A DNA stretch of 64,000 nt from Methanomassiliicoccaceae archaeon (lineage in GTDB: Archaea > Thermoplasmatota > Thermoplasmata > Methanomassiliicoccales > Methanomethylophilaceae), in contig JAEEOP010000027.1 of the NCBI GenBank assembly GCA_016284295.1, positions 1 to 64,000 of the forward strand, in the 5' to 3' direction. The notes below the pieces were generated by a model, which saw only the letters and a list, made by a program, of their open reading frames with translations, was not told where the DNA came from and searched no databases. This document shows positions 1,666 to 39,370 of this stretch, piece by piece. A program made the translations under genes and the position numbers. How positions within the stretch are numbered: the first letter of the stretch is position 1; each line of letters begins with the position of its first letter.

Positions 1666-3297
1666 ATGAGATATGGAATCGCCTTAGATTTGGGAACCAG
1701 CGGATTCCGCTGCCAGGCAGTGGACCTGGATTCCAAGAAGACTATGGCCACGGCAGTCACCGAGCGCCACCCCATTCCGGGAATGAATGTCATCGATCAC
1801 GTCAACTATGCTATGGAGGTAGGGGAGGATCTGGCCAACAGCCTCATGATCTCCGCCATCAACAATCTGTTCAAGGAGTTCAACATCGACCTCTCCTGCG
1901 TGGAGACGATCGCCGTCTGCGGTAACCCGTTCCAGCTTTCTCTCTTCCAGAACATCGAGATCAGGGACCTCGCCTACGCAGGTAAGAACAAGATCGCCTC
2001 CCTGGGGATCGTGTCTCCCGACAGGAACGGAGCCGTCCTCGACGCATCCGCCATCGGACTCGTCGGCATGCCCAAAGCGAAGGTCATCATCCCGCCCGCG
2101 GTCACCCACGAGATCGGTGCCGATGCGATGGCAATGATGATGATGACTGACATCCTCGACGAGAAGGAGCCCTGTATCGTCGTCGACTACGGAACCAACG
2201 CCGAGATGGCCCTCGTTGTCAACGGGAACATCTACACCGGTTCCGCAGCGGCCGGACCCGCCCTCGAGGGTCAGCAGATCGAGAGGGGAATGCTCGCAGC
2301 CCCCGGCGCGCTCAGCGAGATCGAGATCACCGACAAGGGATGGAGATGCTACGTCCTCGACGACACCATCGCCACACAGATGGGAGACCTCATCGACCCC
2401 ATCACAGGAAAGGTCCTCGAGGAAGGTCCCATGCACGGCAAGGCGGTCGGAATCACCGGTACCGGTGTCATCGCAGCCCTCGCCAACGGTATGAAGACAG
2501 GCATCATACAGAACTCGAAGATCAAGACCGAGAGCGGATACCTCGTCCTCCAGGACGGCATCAGGATCAGCTCCAAGGATGTCGAGGAGGCTGGAAAGGC
2601 CATCGGTGCCCTCCGCTGCGGATTCCTCACGCTCATGGATGCCGCCGGCGTCTGGGTGGATGACATCCAGAAGGCATACATGTCCGGAGCATCCGGTCTG
2701 TATGTGGACCCCATCAAGGCAATGGAGGTCGGAATGGTCACTCCCGGAGCGAGGAGGATCGTCCAGTTCGGAAACACCTCCATCGGAATGGCGAGGAAGA
2801 TCATCTTCGGAGAGATCACCCTCGACGAGCTAAAGGTCTTCGCCAAGAAGCTCCTCGCCCAGCACGTCATGTTCGCCACATCCGACATCTTCCAGAAGAT
2901 CTACTCCATCGAGTACTCCTTCTGGTGCGGAGGAATGCCCTTCAGCGAGTACAACAACATGCTCGAGATGTACGACATCAAGAAGATCCCCGAACTCCCG
3001 GCACCCGAGACCATCGATCACAAGCGTCTCGCGATCAGGGACCTGCCCGACACCGAGGAGTGCAAGGTGCACATCATCCAGGCGGGTACCACGACCACCG
3101 GAGTCCTCGACGGATGCATCGGATGTCAGAAGTGCGTCAAGGAATGCCCTGAGAAGGCCCTGACGATCATCAAGAAGGATACCGGCAACATCGCCGAGAT
3201 CAAGACCGACAGATGCGGAGGAACCGCCTGCAGGAGATGCGAATCGGTCTGTCCCAAGCAGTGCCTCCACACCCTCGAGCTCAGGCCCCTCGCCTGA
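1666..3297 (+). CDS. ramA: Methylamine methyltransferase corrinoid protein reductive activase (RamA-like)
   Basis: N-terminal MRYGIALDLGTSGFR ASKHA-type domain and two C-terminal 4Fe-4S motifs (CIGCQKCVKECP, CGGTACRRCESVCP); SD 'ggagg' just upstream of the ATG at 1666. Confidence 0.85.
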   Translation: MRYGIALDLGTSGFRCQAVDLDSKKTMATAVTERHPIPGMNVIDHVNYAMEVGEDLANSLMISAINNLFKEFNIDLSCVETIAVCGNPFQLSLFQNIEIRDLAYAGKNKIASLGIVSPDRNGAVLDASAIGLVGMPKAKVIIPPAVTHEIGADAMAMMMMTDILDEKEPCIVVDYGTNAEMALVVNGNIYTGSAAAGPALEGQQIERGMLAAPGALSEIEITDKGWRCYVLDDTIATQMGDLIDPITGKVLEEGPMHGKAVGITGTGVIAALANGMKTGIIQNSKIKTESGYLVLQDGIRISSKDVEEAGKAIGALRCGFLTLMDAAGVWVDDIQKAYMSGASGLYVDPIKAMEVGMVTPGARRIVQFGNTSIGMARKIIFGEITLDELKVFAKKLLAQHVMFATSDIFQKIYSIEYSFWCGGMPFSEYNNMLEMYDIKKIPELPAPETIDHKRLAIRDLPDTEECKVHIIQAGTTTTGVLDGCIGCQKCVKECPEKALTIIKKDTGNIAEIKTDRCGGTACRRCESVCPKQCLHTLELRPLA

Positions 3298-3343: not shown

Positions 3344-4093
3344 TCAATCGTCGTTGTCGTGGAAGTCGCGCCTCTCCATGCCGAGACGCTCCATGATGGC
3401 GTAGAGCATGTCCTTCACCTCATAGACATCGCTCCTGACCATGGCAATCTGCGTCTTCACGGCCTGGATCTGCTGCTCGTTCTCAAGGATCTTGTCCTGG
3501 AACTCCTTGCTGACTCCGGATGCCGACGGGGATCTGAGCCCTTCGGATTTCAGGGCCTTGATCTTGTTGATCGTGTTGTCGCGCTTGAAGCGGAGCTTGT
3601 TAGACTCCTCCTCCAGGCGCTTCTTCTCGCCGACATCGTCGTTGATGTCCGCCTCCATGATCTTCTGATCCATGATCGTCAGCTTCTCGGTGATGCTCTT
3701 CACCTCGGCGTTGAGCTCATCGATATCGTCGGATTCGGGGACCTCGTAGCCCTCGTACGCCTTGGCCGCGATGGCGTTCCTGGCGTTGGTCTCCTCTATG
3801 AGTGTCTTCCTATAATCCCTTCCGACAGGTTCGAACGATGCCCCTATCGCATACACGCTCGCGTTGAGGTTCCTGCTGGCAAGCGGGAGCTCAAGACCTG
3901 CTTCGATGTAGGAATACTCGATCTCCTTCTTGCGGGCCTGGTACTGGGCTATGAGGCGGTCTATCTCCGCCATGCATGCCTTGTCCTCCTCTGTGGGCTC
4001 TCCCTTCTCGACGATCTTGGCCTTCTAGGATGCCAGATGGTCGGACTGCTTTCCAAGGAAACGGATCTCCCTCTCGTATTTGGTTGCGGTCAT
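3344..4093 (-). CDS. Coiled-coil protein with an in-frame TAG codon (4025-4027); candidate Pyl/amber readthrough gene
   Basis: The supplied ORF 3344..3973 continues upstream in the same frame as MTATKYEREIRFLGKQSDHLAS-[TAG]-KAKIVEKGEPTEEDKACMAEIDRLIAQYQ...; GGAGAGGA lies just upstream of the ATG at 4093. Confidence 0.6.
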
Positions 4094-4202
4094 CTTCCTC
4101 TCCTGCTCTCCGAATAGGGGTGCGCCTATATATAGAAGTCCATTTTGACCAGTATTAGCCAGATGCCCCAGGAATCAAATAGGACGGCTTGCATGGACGG
4201 GC

Positions 4203-4541
4203 ATGGAAGAGCTATGCAACAGGAACCCTGCTGACGACAGGGATCTGCACCACAAGATCGAGACTTTCCTCAGGGACAGGAGCCGCGATGCCGTGCTCGG
4301 CATGAGGAGGATGGGGCGCAGCAACCTCGTTCAGGAGACCGCGGAGATATGCGGGATGCTGGATCTTTCCTATTCTATCTATCCCGATACATCGGGAAAG
4401 GATGTCATAATCTTCGACGAATGGTACGATATGGAGGATGTGATAAAGGACATCCTGTGCAAAAGGTTGGGCGTGGACATAATCTACGGTCAGGACCTGT
4501 GCCATCAAGTGCCAGCAATCGCCAGAATGAAGAAGAATTAA
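4203..4541 (+). CDS. Hypothetical protein, 112 aa
   Basis: ORF between convergent/divergent neighbours; plausible codon usage. Confidence 0.55.
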   Translation: MEELCNRNPADDRDLHHKIETFLRDRSRDAVLGMRRMGRSNLVQETAEICGMLDLSYSIYPDTSGKDVIIFDEWYDMEDVIKDILCKRLGVDIIYGQDLCHQVPAIARMKKN

Positions 4542-5868: not shown

Positions 5869-7092
5869 ATGATGCTTAATCGCTGTCCGAAATGTTCGAA
5901 GAGCACAGGAATAAGGACCATCCCCACCAAGGAGACCTTGGACAGGGTGCTGCCGCTCCTTGAGAAGGCAGGCATGGGAAAGCCGGAGAACATTACCAGC
6001 ACGGACAACGTCGGCATCCCCGTTTTCTCGGTCGACAGGCAGCACACCGCGCTGGGCAAACCCAAATATTACAACGGAAAAGGCCCCACGGTGGAGCAGG
6101 CCGAGGCCTCCGCCGTCATGGAAGCCATCGAAAGATACAGCGCAGAACAGCGTGAATCTGATGAGGTCGTGTACGGCACATACGCCCAGGCGAAGGAGGT
6201 CATGCTGACCTGCAATCCGGTCGACCTGATCCTTCCGTTGCGCGTCCTCGACCATTACAACAAGAACTCCGAGATCGCATGGGTCGAGGCGTTCGAGATG
6301 TTCAGGGGAGAGCCCATCTGGGTGCCCGCATGCGCGGTGTTCTACCCTTATGTCCCTGACGATGACCTGCAGCTCTTCAGCTGGCATACCAACGGCATAG
6401 CCGCAGGGAACACTATGGAGGAGGCCATCCTCCACGCCCTCTTCGAGGACATCGAGAGGGACGCCTGGTCCATCTGCGAGTACAGGGACTACACCAATGC
6501 GGACGTCCTGATCAGGGATAAGGATTCGGTACCTGCGCAGCTTATCAAGAAGTTCAACGAACAGGGCATCGAGATCCATCTCAAGGACCTTACTACAGAT
6601 ATCGGCGTGACTACCATCGGGGCTGCGGCGGACGACACCCGCACCAAGGATCCCGAGCTCCTGACCATCGGTGTCGGAACGCATCTGGACCCGCAAATCG
6701 CCGCAATCAGGGCAATCACCGAGGTTGCCCAGAGCAGAACCACCCACAAGCACGGGATGAAGATCAACGCCCAGCTGCAGAAGGTCACGCAGGAGATGGG
6801 CTATGAGAAGATCAAGAAGGTGAACCACATGTGGTTCGGCGAGAACCAGAAGAAGATCTATCTGGAGGATATGCCGGACAGGTCCACCGATTATGTGCTG
6901 GACGACATCGAGGTCGTCCTGGGAGACCTCATGAACGCAGGATTCGACCAGGTCATCTGCGCAGACCTCACTCGCCCGGAGCTCGGCGTACCCGCAGTTA
7001 GGATGATCGTGCCCGGTCTCGAGGTCTGCACCATGGATCCAGAACGCGAGGGCGGAAGGCTCCGCGGCATGTGGCCCCCGCAGAGGATGTGA
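5869..7092 (+). CDS. ycaO: YcaO-type methanogenesis marker protein 1 (McrA glycine thioamidation family)
   Basis: CPKCSKSTGIRTIPTKETLDRVLPLLEKAGM..., QAEASAVMEAIERYSAEQ typical of methanogen YcaO. Confidence 0.8.
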   Translation: MMLNRCPKCSKSTGIRTIPTKETLDRVLPLLEKAGMGKPENITSTDNVGIPVFSVDRQHTALGKPKYYNGKGPTVEQAEASAVMEAIERYSAEQRESDEVVYGTYAQAKEVMLTCNPVDLILPLRVLDHYNKNSEIAWVEAFEMFRGEPIWVPACAVFYPYVPDDDLQLFSWHTNGIAAGNTMEEAILHALFEDIERDAWSICEYRDYTNADVLIRDKDSVPAQLIKKFNEQGIEIHLKDLTTDIGVTTIGAAADDTRTKDPELLTIGVGTHLDPQIAAIRAITEVAQSRTTHKHGMKINAQLQKVTQEMGYEKIKKVNHMWFGENQKKIYLEDMPDRSTDYVLDDIEVVLGDLMNAGFDQVICADLTRPELGVPAVRMIVPGLEVCTMDPEREGGRLRGMWPPQRM

Positions 7093-7880: not shown

Positions 7881-10607
7881 TTACTGGGTACCGTCACCGA
7901 GCTTGTGGTGCCTGTCCAGGACCTTCAGGTGCTCGAGGTCGTTGTATCTGAACCTCTTCCTGTTGTCCTCGAAGGTGGTGTCCTTGGGGAACATCTTCTT
8001 GACGGTCTGGAGGATGATGCTTCCCATTCCCATGATGGGCTTTCCGAGGTTGATTCCGAACCTGGTCATACCGCATACGACGTGTCCAGGGTTGACGACA
8101 TCGTGGTGATCGAGGACGGTCTTGAGCTCCCTCATCTTCTTGACGGTAGGCACGTTGTGGATCACATCGAGCTGCCATGCGAAGAACACTCCGAGACCGG
8201 TAGACCTTCCTCCGAACTCCGCTGCCCTGTCTCCCATGTAGAAGTTGAATCCGAACGGGAGCATTCCGGTGAGGAGCTCGTCGTCCTTGAAGTAGTAGGG
8301 CATGAACAGGGTGGTGGACCTGTCGACCATGACTCCGATGATTCCTCCGGCCTCCATCTTCATCTCGTCGAATCCCTCGTAGCAGATGTCGACGTACTCT
8401 CCCCAGTTGTGGGTGGGGACGATGACCTCTGCGGGGATCTCTCCGACTCCGACCTTCCTGGCGCGGAACTCGTAGCACCTCTCCTCCCACTCGTGCTCTG
8501 CGACCTCGGTCGCGATCTTCCTTCCGCCCTGCTTCTCTGCGGCGGCGTCGGCGAACTGCTCGCCGAGGTCGTTGTGGGCGGCATCTCCCTGAAATGTCAC
8601 GAGGAACACGTTGGTGACATCGGGTGCGTGGATTCCGGCCTTGCGCTGGTTCTCGAAGTGCTTGAAATCGGACCATGCGATGTGCAGGGGGATGACGGAG
8701 GGGTTCTGGACGATCTCCTGGAGCTGGGGGTCGGCCATGCTGAGGCCGTCGTACTCGTATCCGGTGCACCTGATCTCTCCAATGGGGTAGATCCTGAACG
8801 TAACGGTTCCGAGGACTCCGAGGGTTCCCTCCGCTCCTGCGAAGAACTGGTTGAGGTTGTAGCTCATTCCGTAGGATCCCATGTTGTCGAATCCGGTGGT
8901 GACGATGGATCCGTCGTCCACGACGACGCAGGAGTTCAGGACGTTGTCCTTGGCGGATCCGTACTTGTAGGAACCGATTCCCATACCGTTGGTGGAGATC
9001 CATGCTCCGATGGTTCCCGCGGGGAAACTGGAGGGGTAGGATCCGATGATGTAACCCTTCTTCATGCATGCCTCGAGGAGTCTCTTCCATGTGCATCCTG
9101 CCTGGACCTTGACGTACCTCTCCTCGGTGTTGATCTCGAGGACCTTGTTCATCTTGGAGGTCATGTCGAGGACGATTCCGCCGAATGTGGGCATGCATCC
9201 TCCGAGACCCCATGTCGCGTTACCCCTGGGGGTAACCGGGATTCCGTTCTTGTACGCAATCTTCATGACGGCTGCGATCTGCTTGATGTTCTCGGGCCTG
9301 ACGATGACGTCGGGGATGCAGTTGAATGCGAGTCCGGCCTCCTTGGGAAGGGGTGCGAGGTCATGGCAGTAGATGATCCTGTCCATTCCGTTGGTGTTGA
9401 CGTTCTTTGCTCCGACGGCCTCCTTGAGAGCCTCGAGGATCTCGGGGGTGACCTTGCGGTCGAACTTGGGGTCCTTGGGCTTGTAGCCGAGGTATCCCTC
9501 CGTAACCTTCTTCACGAAGTTGTTGGTGGCCTCTGTGCGGTACTTGCTGCTGCACTTGCATGCGTACCTTCCGCCAAGGGCCTCTGCCTTCTCGACGAGT
9601 GCGTCGATGTCGGCTCCCTCTCCGTGCCTAATCTTGACTGCGACCGTGGTGCAGTCGGGGACGTTTCCGGCGACCTTGTAACCTGCGGTCCTCGCCTCGT
9701 CGAGGAATGCTGCCAGGTTCTTGACGGGGATGTAGAATGTGCGTGCTGTGGGGCACATGCAAGCGGCTCCCTCGATGCCGGTCCAGAGGTCATCGTCGAT
9801 CTTGTTAGCTCCCTCGAAGAACGCATCGGTGGCGCTGACGTCGAGGTCGACGAATGCCTCGTCCCCCTGGTATGCGAGGACGGCCTTGTTCTCGTTGAAC
9901 GAGATGTGGAGGGGCTTGACGGAGGGCTCCTGGGCGATGGTCTCCAACGCCTTCTGGAGGTCTGCGAAAGCTCCGAACTCGTAAGCGACGGCCTTGGTGA
10001 CACCTGCGGGGACCATCTTGATCGTAACTGCTGTGATGATTCCGATCCTTCCGGAGGATGCGAGGTAGGTCTGGGTCAGGTTGTAACCGGACATGTAGTA
10101 TCCGATGATGTCGTAACCTGTCTCGATCGCTCCTCCGCTGCAGTCGACGGCGAAGACGTTGTAGACGTTGTCCTTGACGGTTCCGTACTTGTAGGATCCG
10201 ACGCAGGGGGACTCGGTGTAGACCCAATCCTCGACGGTCATGTCGGCTCCGGCGGGGCGGGCTCCGATGGTGAAGCCCTTCTCCTCGACTGCCTTCAGCA
10301 GGTCGCTGAACTTGCATCCGACCTGGACCTTGACGGTCATGTTGACGGTGTCGATGAACTCGATGGCCTTCATGTTCTTGAAGTCGAAGACGACCTCTCC
10401 TGCATCGTGGTGCCTGGCTGCCTTCGTGGTGACTGCTCCCTTGGCGTCCATGACGGCCTTGACTGTTGCGATGACATCCGCCTGGTTGGCGGGTGCGACG
10501 ACTGTGCACTCCCCGTCCTTGCAGATCTTGCCCTCGCCGATCACTGTTGCGATGCGGTCGAGGACCTCCTCGGAGACGGGTGCTCCATTGTATTCAAGCG
10601 ACTTCAT
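7881..10607 (-). CDS. Double-length GlcD-like FAD-linked oxidoreductase (two tandem FAD-binding_4-type halves)
   Basis: Both halves contain parallel blocks (KVQVGCKFSDLLKAVEEKGFTIG / KVQAGCTWKRLLEACMKKGYIIG; GSYKYGTVKDNV / GSYKYGSAKDNV; PSVKPLHISF / PSVIPLHIAW). Start at 10607 chosen from the GGAGGT spacing; the ORF is open to 10655. Confidence 0.75.
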   Translation of the reverse strand: MKSLEYNGAPVSEEVLDRIATVIGEGKICKDGECTVVAPANQADVIATVKAVMDAKGAVTTKAARHHDAGEVVFDFKNMKAIEFIDTVNMTVKVQVGCKFSDLLKAVEEKGFTIGARPAGADMTVEDWVYTESPCVGSYKYGTVKDNVYNVFAVDCSGGAIETGYDIIGYYMSGYNLTQTYLASSGRIGIITAVTIKMVPAGVTKAVAYEFGAFADLQKALETIAQEPSVKPLHISFNENKAVLAYQGDEAFVDLDVSATDAFFEGANKIDDDLWTGIEGAACMCPTARTFYIPVKNLAAFLDEARTAGYKVAGNVPDCTTVAVKIRHGEGADIDALVEKAEALGGRYACKCSSKYRTEATNNFVKKVTEGYLGYKPKDPKFDRKVTPEILEALKEAVGAKNVNTNGMDRIIYCHDLAPLPKEAGLAFNCIPDVIVRPENIKQIAAVMKIAYKNGIPVTPRGNATWGLGGCMPTFGGIVLDMTSKMNKVLEINTEERYVKVQAGCTWKRLLEACMKKGYIIGSYPSSFPAGTIGAWISTNGMGIGSYKYGSAKDNVLNSCVVVDDGSIVTTGFDNMGSYGMSYNLNQFFAGAEGTLGVLGTVTFRIYPIGEIRCTGYEYDGLSMADPQLQEIVQNPSVIPLHIAWSDFKHFENQRKAGIHAPDVTNVFLVTFQGDAAHNDLGEQFADAAAEKQGGRKIATEVAEHEWEERCYEFRARKVGVGEIPAEVIVPTHNWGEYVDICYEGFDEMKMEAGGIIGVMVDRSTTLFMPYYFKDDELLTGMLPFGFNFYMGDRAAEFGGRSTGLGVFFAWQLDVIHNVPTVKKMRELKTVLDHHDVVNPGHVVCGMTRFGINLGKPIMGMGSIILQTVKKMFPKDTTFEDNRKRFRYNDLEHLKVLDRHHKLGDGTQ

Positions 10608-10703
10608 TTTCTTCATACCTCCACATAGTGTGGACTGAATGGATGTTTGAGTCATGTTCTATAATATAAAGGGAATCTATCCAGAATGAGAAAGGAATGA
10701 GAT

Positions 10704-38773: not shown

Positions 38774-39007
38774 TCAATCCCATTCAATTCCCAGGATTTC
38801 TATTATTTCATCGGATGAAGCCCTTCTGATAGTATTGTCTTTGACCAGAAGAAAAGGAGGCCATCCCAGTTCAATTCCTTCTTCAGATGGTATTGGCGAC
38901 CATACATCATAATCTTTGAACTTACTGTGGAACCTGACATCGTTGAAATCTGACGGATAGTTCTTCCTCATATACTCAAGCACATCATCCTTTTCCACCG
39001 GAACCAC
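38774..39007 (-). CDS. Hypothetical protein, 77 aa; possible immunity-type partner
   Basis: MVPVEKDDVLEYMRKNYPSDFNDVRFHSKFKDYDVWSPIPSEEGIELGWPPFLLVKDNTIRRASSDEIIEILGIEWD*; overlaps the end of the toxin-like remnant. Confidence 0.5.
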   Translation of the reverse strand: MVPVEKDDVLEYMRKNYPSDFNDVRFHSKFKDYDVWSPIPSEEGIELGWPPFLLVKDNTIRRASSDEIIEILGIEWD

Positions 39008-39370
39008 CAGCCTTCTTCAGCACTACATTCATCACCTTCGTGTTCGGACAGAGGTTGTCGATCCTGAGTATTCTCGGGGAGTTCTTAGCGCTGTAGTTTA
39101 TATGGTCAAGGATCTTTTTGATTTTGTCCTGCTTCTAGTGCTCTTTCCCGTTTGTGGATCTGTCAAGCATACTCCGTTTTTCCCACTTTCCAGGATAATG
39201 ACATGGTTGGCGTCTTCAACTTTCACCTTCAAGACCTAGTGTATAGCAGATCCTAGAAGGAACGTTTTCATCGGTCCTTGTGCTGAACGCATCTGCTTCT
39301 ATCACCTTAAACGTCTCGTGTTGGAGTACTTGTCGGCCTTCTTGTCTATCTTTATCCGAACTCCTGAAGT
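38999..39370 (-). pseudogene. Frameshifted remnant resembling a papain-fold (Tox-PL-like) toxin C-terminus
   Basis: Frames joined: RIKIDKKADKYSNT/ETFKVIEADAFSTRTDENVPSRICYTLGLE/KVKVEDANHVIILESGKNGVCLTDPQTGKST/KQDKIKKILDHINYSAKNSPRILRIDNLCPNTKVMNVVLKKAGGSGGKG*. Confidence 0.5.

Follow-up and report, generated by a model that had tools for sequence, protein, structure and literature searches.

The 64,000-nt stretch of archaeal (gut methanogen) DNA analysed here (the window; contig C28 of a 1.86-Mb Methanomethylophilaceae genome, G000) contains a minus-strand gene for a coiled-coil protein whose frame, opened from an ATG at 4093, is interrupted only once, by a TAG at 4027–4025. We consider it likely, taking all parts together, that this TAG is decoded as pyrrolysine (Pyl) by the genome's own pylT/PylS system, that the product would be a 249-residue, mostly helical coiled-coil protein begun at ATG 4093 and belonging to a small Methanomethylophilaceae family housed in methylamine loci, and that Pyl, at a helix position and in the context Pyl-[Lys/Arg], has been retained by purifying selection. 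This reading draws on a complete pyl cassette, the rarity of TAG stops, conserved flanks and a conserved codon position, together with the retention of TAG relative to simulation, a TAG in a paralogue, the constant Lys/Arg neighbour and the loci in which the genes lie. The features concerned are as follows.

3344..4093, minus strand: full CDS of the coiled-coil protein, 249 codons, predicted Pyl (TAG) at codon 23, stop TGA at 3346–3344
4025..4027, minus strand: in-frame TAG, predicted pyrrolysine, codon 23
4028..4093, minus strand: codons 1–22, conserved N-terminal segment (KYERE[IL]RF), missed by the conventional ORF call
4096..4103, minus strand: Shine–Dalgarno-like GGAGAGGA, ending 2 nt upstream of ATG 4093
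4126..4138, minus strand: archaeal TATA-type promoter element CTTCTATATATAG, ~42 nt upstream of ATG 4093
1666..3297, plus strand: ramA, methylamine methyltransferase corrinoid protein reductive activase (TIGR04270, 680 bits), convergent neighbour
4203..4541, plus strand: 112-aa divergent neighbour without a Pfam match (family 17), which stays beside the gene in several relatives

The conventional ORF in the supplied list covers 3344–3973 and opens at MAEIDRL, which corresponds to codon 41 (209 residues). The first-pass annotation had proposed that the frame stays open upstream of this point, through a single TAG, to an ATG with a Shine–Dalgarno sequence, and both the sequence and its translation agree. 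The codon-usage score per codon is positive on either side of the TAG (+0.28 before, +0.41 after). The gene has matches in a further 25 genomes of the genus; the 24 homologues inspected comprise 13 orthologues (11 with TAG and 2 with GAG at codon 23) and a sense-codon branch. Alternative start codons aside, all 24 share the N-terminus M-x-x-[ST]-K-[YF]-[ED]-R-E-[IL]-R-F, whether or not they carry the TAG, and codon 23 is alignable from the start without gaps. The segment is thus kept in 13/13 orthologues, which do not start at MAEIDRL, as well as in the sense-codon homologues, where the frame runs straight through the TAG position; in the homologue alignment, homologous coding sequence continues without a break on either side of the TAG. 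Among the TAG orthologues, pN/pS is 0.33 at codons 2–22 vs 0.53 downstream, with synonymous sites near saturation (pS 0.6–0.7). As judged from these sequence comparisons, the segment before the TAG is part of the protein, and purifying selection is stronger upstream than downstream of the TAG.

A promoter-like CTTCTATATATA is present in 7/8 closer orthologues, 41–43 nt upstream of the start ATG (measured to the CTATATA core), so that the transcription start would fall just upstream of ATG 4093, and GAGG or GGGAAGG motifs in the orthologues resemble the Shine–Dalgarno sequence of the window gene. These data bear on the alternative that the TAG is a real stop, closing a 22-codon leader ahead of an independent 209-residue gene that begins at MAEIDRL (3973). 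The conventional ORF does open there, but the ATG at codon 41 is private to the window genome among the orthologues, and two TAG orthologues lack any ATG, GTG or TTG across codons 24–70. Moreover, the sense-codon homologues read through, the supposed leader evolves under purifying selection in that frame, and a conserved promoter stands just before ATG 4093, making a genuine stop highly improbable. MAEIDRL as an internal start was likewise rejected as very unlikely, since its ATG is not conserved, whereas the N-terminal segment and the promoter point to ATG 4093.

A complete pylT-pylS-pylB-pylC-pylD cassette, whose presence the first-pass annotation had suggested confirming, was found in the same genome, on another contig than the window (locus L039), including the tRNA gene.

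2996..3066 of L039: pylT (tRNA-Pyl, CUA)

The PylS C-terminal domain, PylB, PylC and PylD of this locus all exceed curated cut-offs. The cassette stands behind an mtmB-like gene with its own TAG at codon 202, named by its position and by similarity to the mtmB-type genes of relatives, with no NCBIfam match. As a stop, TAG ends none of the 54 window genes, and accounts for 2.0% and 2.6% of stops in two relatives. For some archaea, a 2025 Science paper by Kivenson and co-workers reportedly claims that every TAG encodes Pyl, a claim on which the present reading does not draw. Low TAG use here is in line with that of 'Ca. M. alvus', where 1.6% of stops are TAG (PMC4153887). The TAG at 4027–4025 is almost certainly a sense codon, and the presence of a complete pyl cassette in the same genome makes it very probable that it is read as Pyl. 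The pyrrolysine/amber readthrough candidate originally proposed is therefore supported by the cassette, the conserved N-terminus and the recurrence of the TAG, with Pyl insertion itself a prediction.

Codon 23 is TAG in 11/13 orthologues and GAG in 2/13. The TAG orthologues are 39–100% identical to the window protein (two of the eleven being near-identical), and the same TAG recurs in 10 further genomes from independent assemblies, so that chance and an assembly error are both excluded. On a maximum-likelihood tree built without the codon-23 column there are two losses of TAG, both by change to GAG in a lineage whose sister keeps TAG. The column therefore requires two changes, whereas most flanking codons of the helix require three to eight; on the scale of the whole protein its conservation is about the median, with 48% of columns needing no more changes. 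Neutral simulation from a TAG root, under a simple HKY-type model run at the rate averaged across all codon positions, never left TAG in 10 or more of the 12 tips (0/4000 runs), whereas 1.8% of runs did so at half that rate; the simulated rate gives fewer changes than are seen at the nine available fourfold sites, and is hence conservative, yet approximate. The independent origin of GAG (Glu) in two orthologues implies that, in those genomes at least, another residue can stand in for Pyl. One of them, G012, retains a TAG-bearing short paralogue; the other is G011. Besides its GAG, the G011 orthologue (L007, G011:C72:2054–2800) is cut short by a premature TAA at codon 224, 26 codons ahead of the normal end; it may be decaying, or the TAA may be a sequencing error.

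As a genome control, 800 kb of the relative G030, a portion outside which its coiled-coil gene falls, was compared with the whole genome of the relative G007, with TAG read through and a coding-frame filter applied. Five TAG–TAG positions passed the filter, four of them in methylamine methyltransferase-type genes, as recognised from the sequence around the TAG; the only shared TAG of another type lies in a shortened paralogue of the coiled-coil gene. A further 20 TAGs lie opposite a sense codon, some of which are paralogue or end effects, and by our reading roughly a dozen appear to be sound lineage-specific TAGs. The window itself holds a 61-codon minus-strand frame (38985–39170) with a TAG at codon 12 (MLDRSTNGKEH-TAG-KQDKIKK...); as no relatives were found among the 30 other genomes searched, it is probably lineage-specific or a spurious ORF.

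The lineage-specific TAGs of the two relatives indicate that TAG codons do arise by drift, and the coiled-coil gene might be another such case, its TAG decoded as Pyl but the residue without a role, a CAG, GAG or AAG having drifted at a tolerant, exposed helix position of a genome in which TAG is decoded efficiently. The sense branch has CAG, GAG, AAG, GAA, TAC, GCC or GGA at codon 23, mostly the first three, each of which is one step from TAG, and there have been two independent returns to GAG. Precedents have also been proposed: a 2009 PNAS paper, listed as ref. 79 of PMC4153887, is by its title said to describe Pyl in tRNA-His guanylyltransferase and to propose that its appearance was neutral. 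That enzyme resembles the present protein in having Pyl outside the methyltransferases, but its Pyl was interpreted as neutral, whereas the pattern in the coiled-coil family speaks for constraint. For M. alvus, too, TAG has been proposed to be a stable mutation (PMC4153887). Against drift in the present gene, TAG has been retained across near-saturated synonymous divergence and in two paralogous families, with Lys or Arg next in all TAG copies, while other TAGs turn over. We consider neutrality unlikely and lean towards selection on the Pyl residue itself.

The second of these families is represented in the same genome by a short paralogue.

17576..17974 of contig C9, G000 (locus L184, 7570–7989), minus strand: short TAG paralogue

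The short paralogue (139–143 residues), present in G000, G007, G012, G018, G022 and G030, is homologous to the coiled-coil protein (profile E 2.7e-7, probability 93%). Each of its six copies has exactly one TAG, at codon 21–23 where the start was determined, and in an alignment with TAG masked as X, the 15 TAGs of distinct long and short sequences share one column. The following residue is Lys or Arg in every TAG copy, and Leu or Ile in the sense branch. Despite the TAG at codon 21–23, the N-termini of the short paralogues are dissimilar. A small gene with weak YcxB-like similarity overlaps or abuts the short paralogue's end (L154 10856–11335, L057 8508–9035 and L184 7073–7573).

The early TAG in both families, in spite of these unlike N-termini, together with the proximity of pyl and methylamine genes, would suit an expression gate, in which the full-length protein is made only when charged tRNA-Pyl is plentiful and a ~22-residue peptide otherwise, the codon rather than the residue being kept. 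However, homology accounts for the early position, and in the long gene the 22 residues ahead of the TAG are conserved and form part of a helix that is predicted for the sense homologues as well. A conserved RNA structure or readthrough element around the TAG received no support (1 compensatory pair of 16), and these genomes hardly ever end a gene with TAG. Gating thus seems improbable, and Pyl as a retained residue remains our preferred interpretation.

The first-pass annotation had expected a product unlike the methylamine methyltransferases. Consistent with this, the coiled-coil protein falls into none of the Pfam or NCBIfam families and shows no resemblance to methyltransferases, and a sequence search of solved structures (PDB) gave weak generic coiled-coil matches at most. 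An AlphaFold model (pLDDT 75, pTM 0.33), in which the helices are fairly confident and the overall arrangement is unreliable, has helices at residues 5–29, 35–65, 92–111, 124–150, 154–186 and 196–237, and places Pyl23 in the first helix of a predicted hairpin. MtmB, MtbB and MttB have a barrel fold and carry Pyl at their active sites. The present gene resembles theirs in its in-frame TAG (here presumed to be read as Pyl), its loci and the cross-species constancy of the TAG position, and differs in encoding a helical coiled-coil protein without methyltransferase similarity.

In-frame TAGs in genes other than methyltransferases are already known in this archaeal order: 'Ca. M. alvus' has 16 putative non-methyltransferase Pyl proteins (Table 7, PMC4153887), half of which have TAG-less homologues in two other species (PMC4153887), and ISO4-H5 has 46 genes with an in-frame amber codon (PMC5011839). 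The coiled-coil gene is like these candidates in carrying its TAG outside the methylamine methyltransferases; unlike those of M. alvus, it keeps the TAG in 11/13 orthologues and in a paralogue. Table 7 of PMC4153887 has no coiled-coil entry of about 249 aa, and its 148-aa hypothetical protein AGI85290.1 is near the short paralogue in size, the one property compared. What is new, as far as the literature examined goes, is a non-methyltransferase family whose TAG is conserved across species and through duplication. Pyl outside the methyltransferases has hitherto been read as tolerated drift, and this family offers a specific case in which the 22nd amino acid may have acquired a second use that is under selection. 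Conventional ORF calls shorten proteins of this kind.

The gene had been described as lying just downstream of ramA. It does lie beyond the ramA 3′ end; however, it is on the opposite strand and convergent, so the two do not form an operon. In G030, G007, G003 and G012, too, the long gene adjoins ramA, beyond which comes an mtmB-type gene; in three of these genomes (G030, G007 and G012) the pyl genes follow within about 12 kb. In a more distant subclade (G001, G025, G026 and G029), the long gene directly precedes genes for a ChlI-type AAA+ protein and an AAA-VWA protein, with SMR-like transporters and ramA nearby and, in G001 and G029, trimethylamine and dimethylamine methyltransferase genes (mttB/mtbB) also near. 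That place is taken in the closer subclade by the short TAG paralogue, which stands divergent from the AAA+/VWA pair and in several genomes lies within the trimethylamine locus. The VWA subfamily (at least 66% identity) occurs in 11 genomes and is adjoined by a TAG coiled-coil gene in 11/11; it is absent from three genomes with the long gene (G003, G024 and G011). This constant neighbourhood applies to the short copies and the subclade-2 long copies, whereas the window's own long copy sits by ramA instead. The sense homologues are located elsewhere, beside a trypsin-like gene and Sel1-repeat genes, and the presence of both kinds in G022 makes it probable that the sense and TAG branches are paralogues, not a single gene that has moved.

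MoxR/ChlI AAA+ proteins paired with VWA proteins form maturation systems, e.g. CbbQ-CbbO and NorQ-NorD. A ChlI-type AAA+ gene and an AAA-VWA gene likewise adjoin a TAG coiled-coil gene in 11 genomes, and we know of no such system with a Pyl coiled-coil partner. Judging by gene neighbourhood alone, the coiled-coil protein may be linked to this pair, and we would guess, from the same neighbourhoods, that it is an accessory or adaptor protein in methylamine methyltransferase/corrinoid activation. Such a structural or adaptor component of the methylamine system might act with RamA and/or the ChlI-like AAA+/VWA pair in the maturation or reactivation of methyltransferase–corrinoid proteins, and the YcxB-like small gene, kept in several genomes, is a possible third partner. 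More speculatively, and rather doubtfully, the electrophilic pyrroline ring on such an adaptor could bind ammonia, methylamine or a partner, serving as a methylamine-responsive switch or as a docking point for RamA or the AAA+/VWA pair; such a role would, to our knowledge, be the first Pyl function under selection outside the methyltransferases.

Two other genes of the window may be mentioned. A YcaO-related McrA-glycine thioamidation gene (5869–7092) is a neighbour of the coiled-coil gene, and a minus-strand gene at 7881–10616 encodes a 911-aa protein with two GlcD-like FAD-linked oxidase stretches, apparently an internal duplication.
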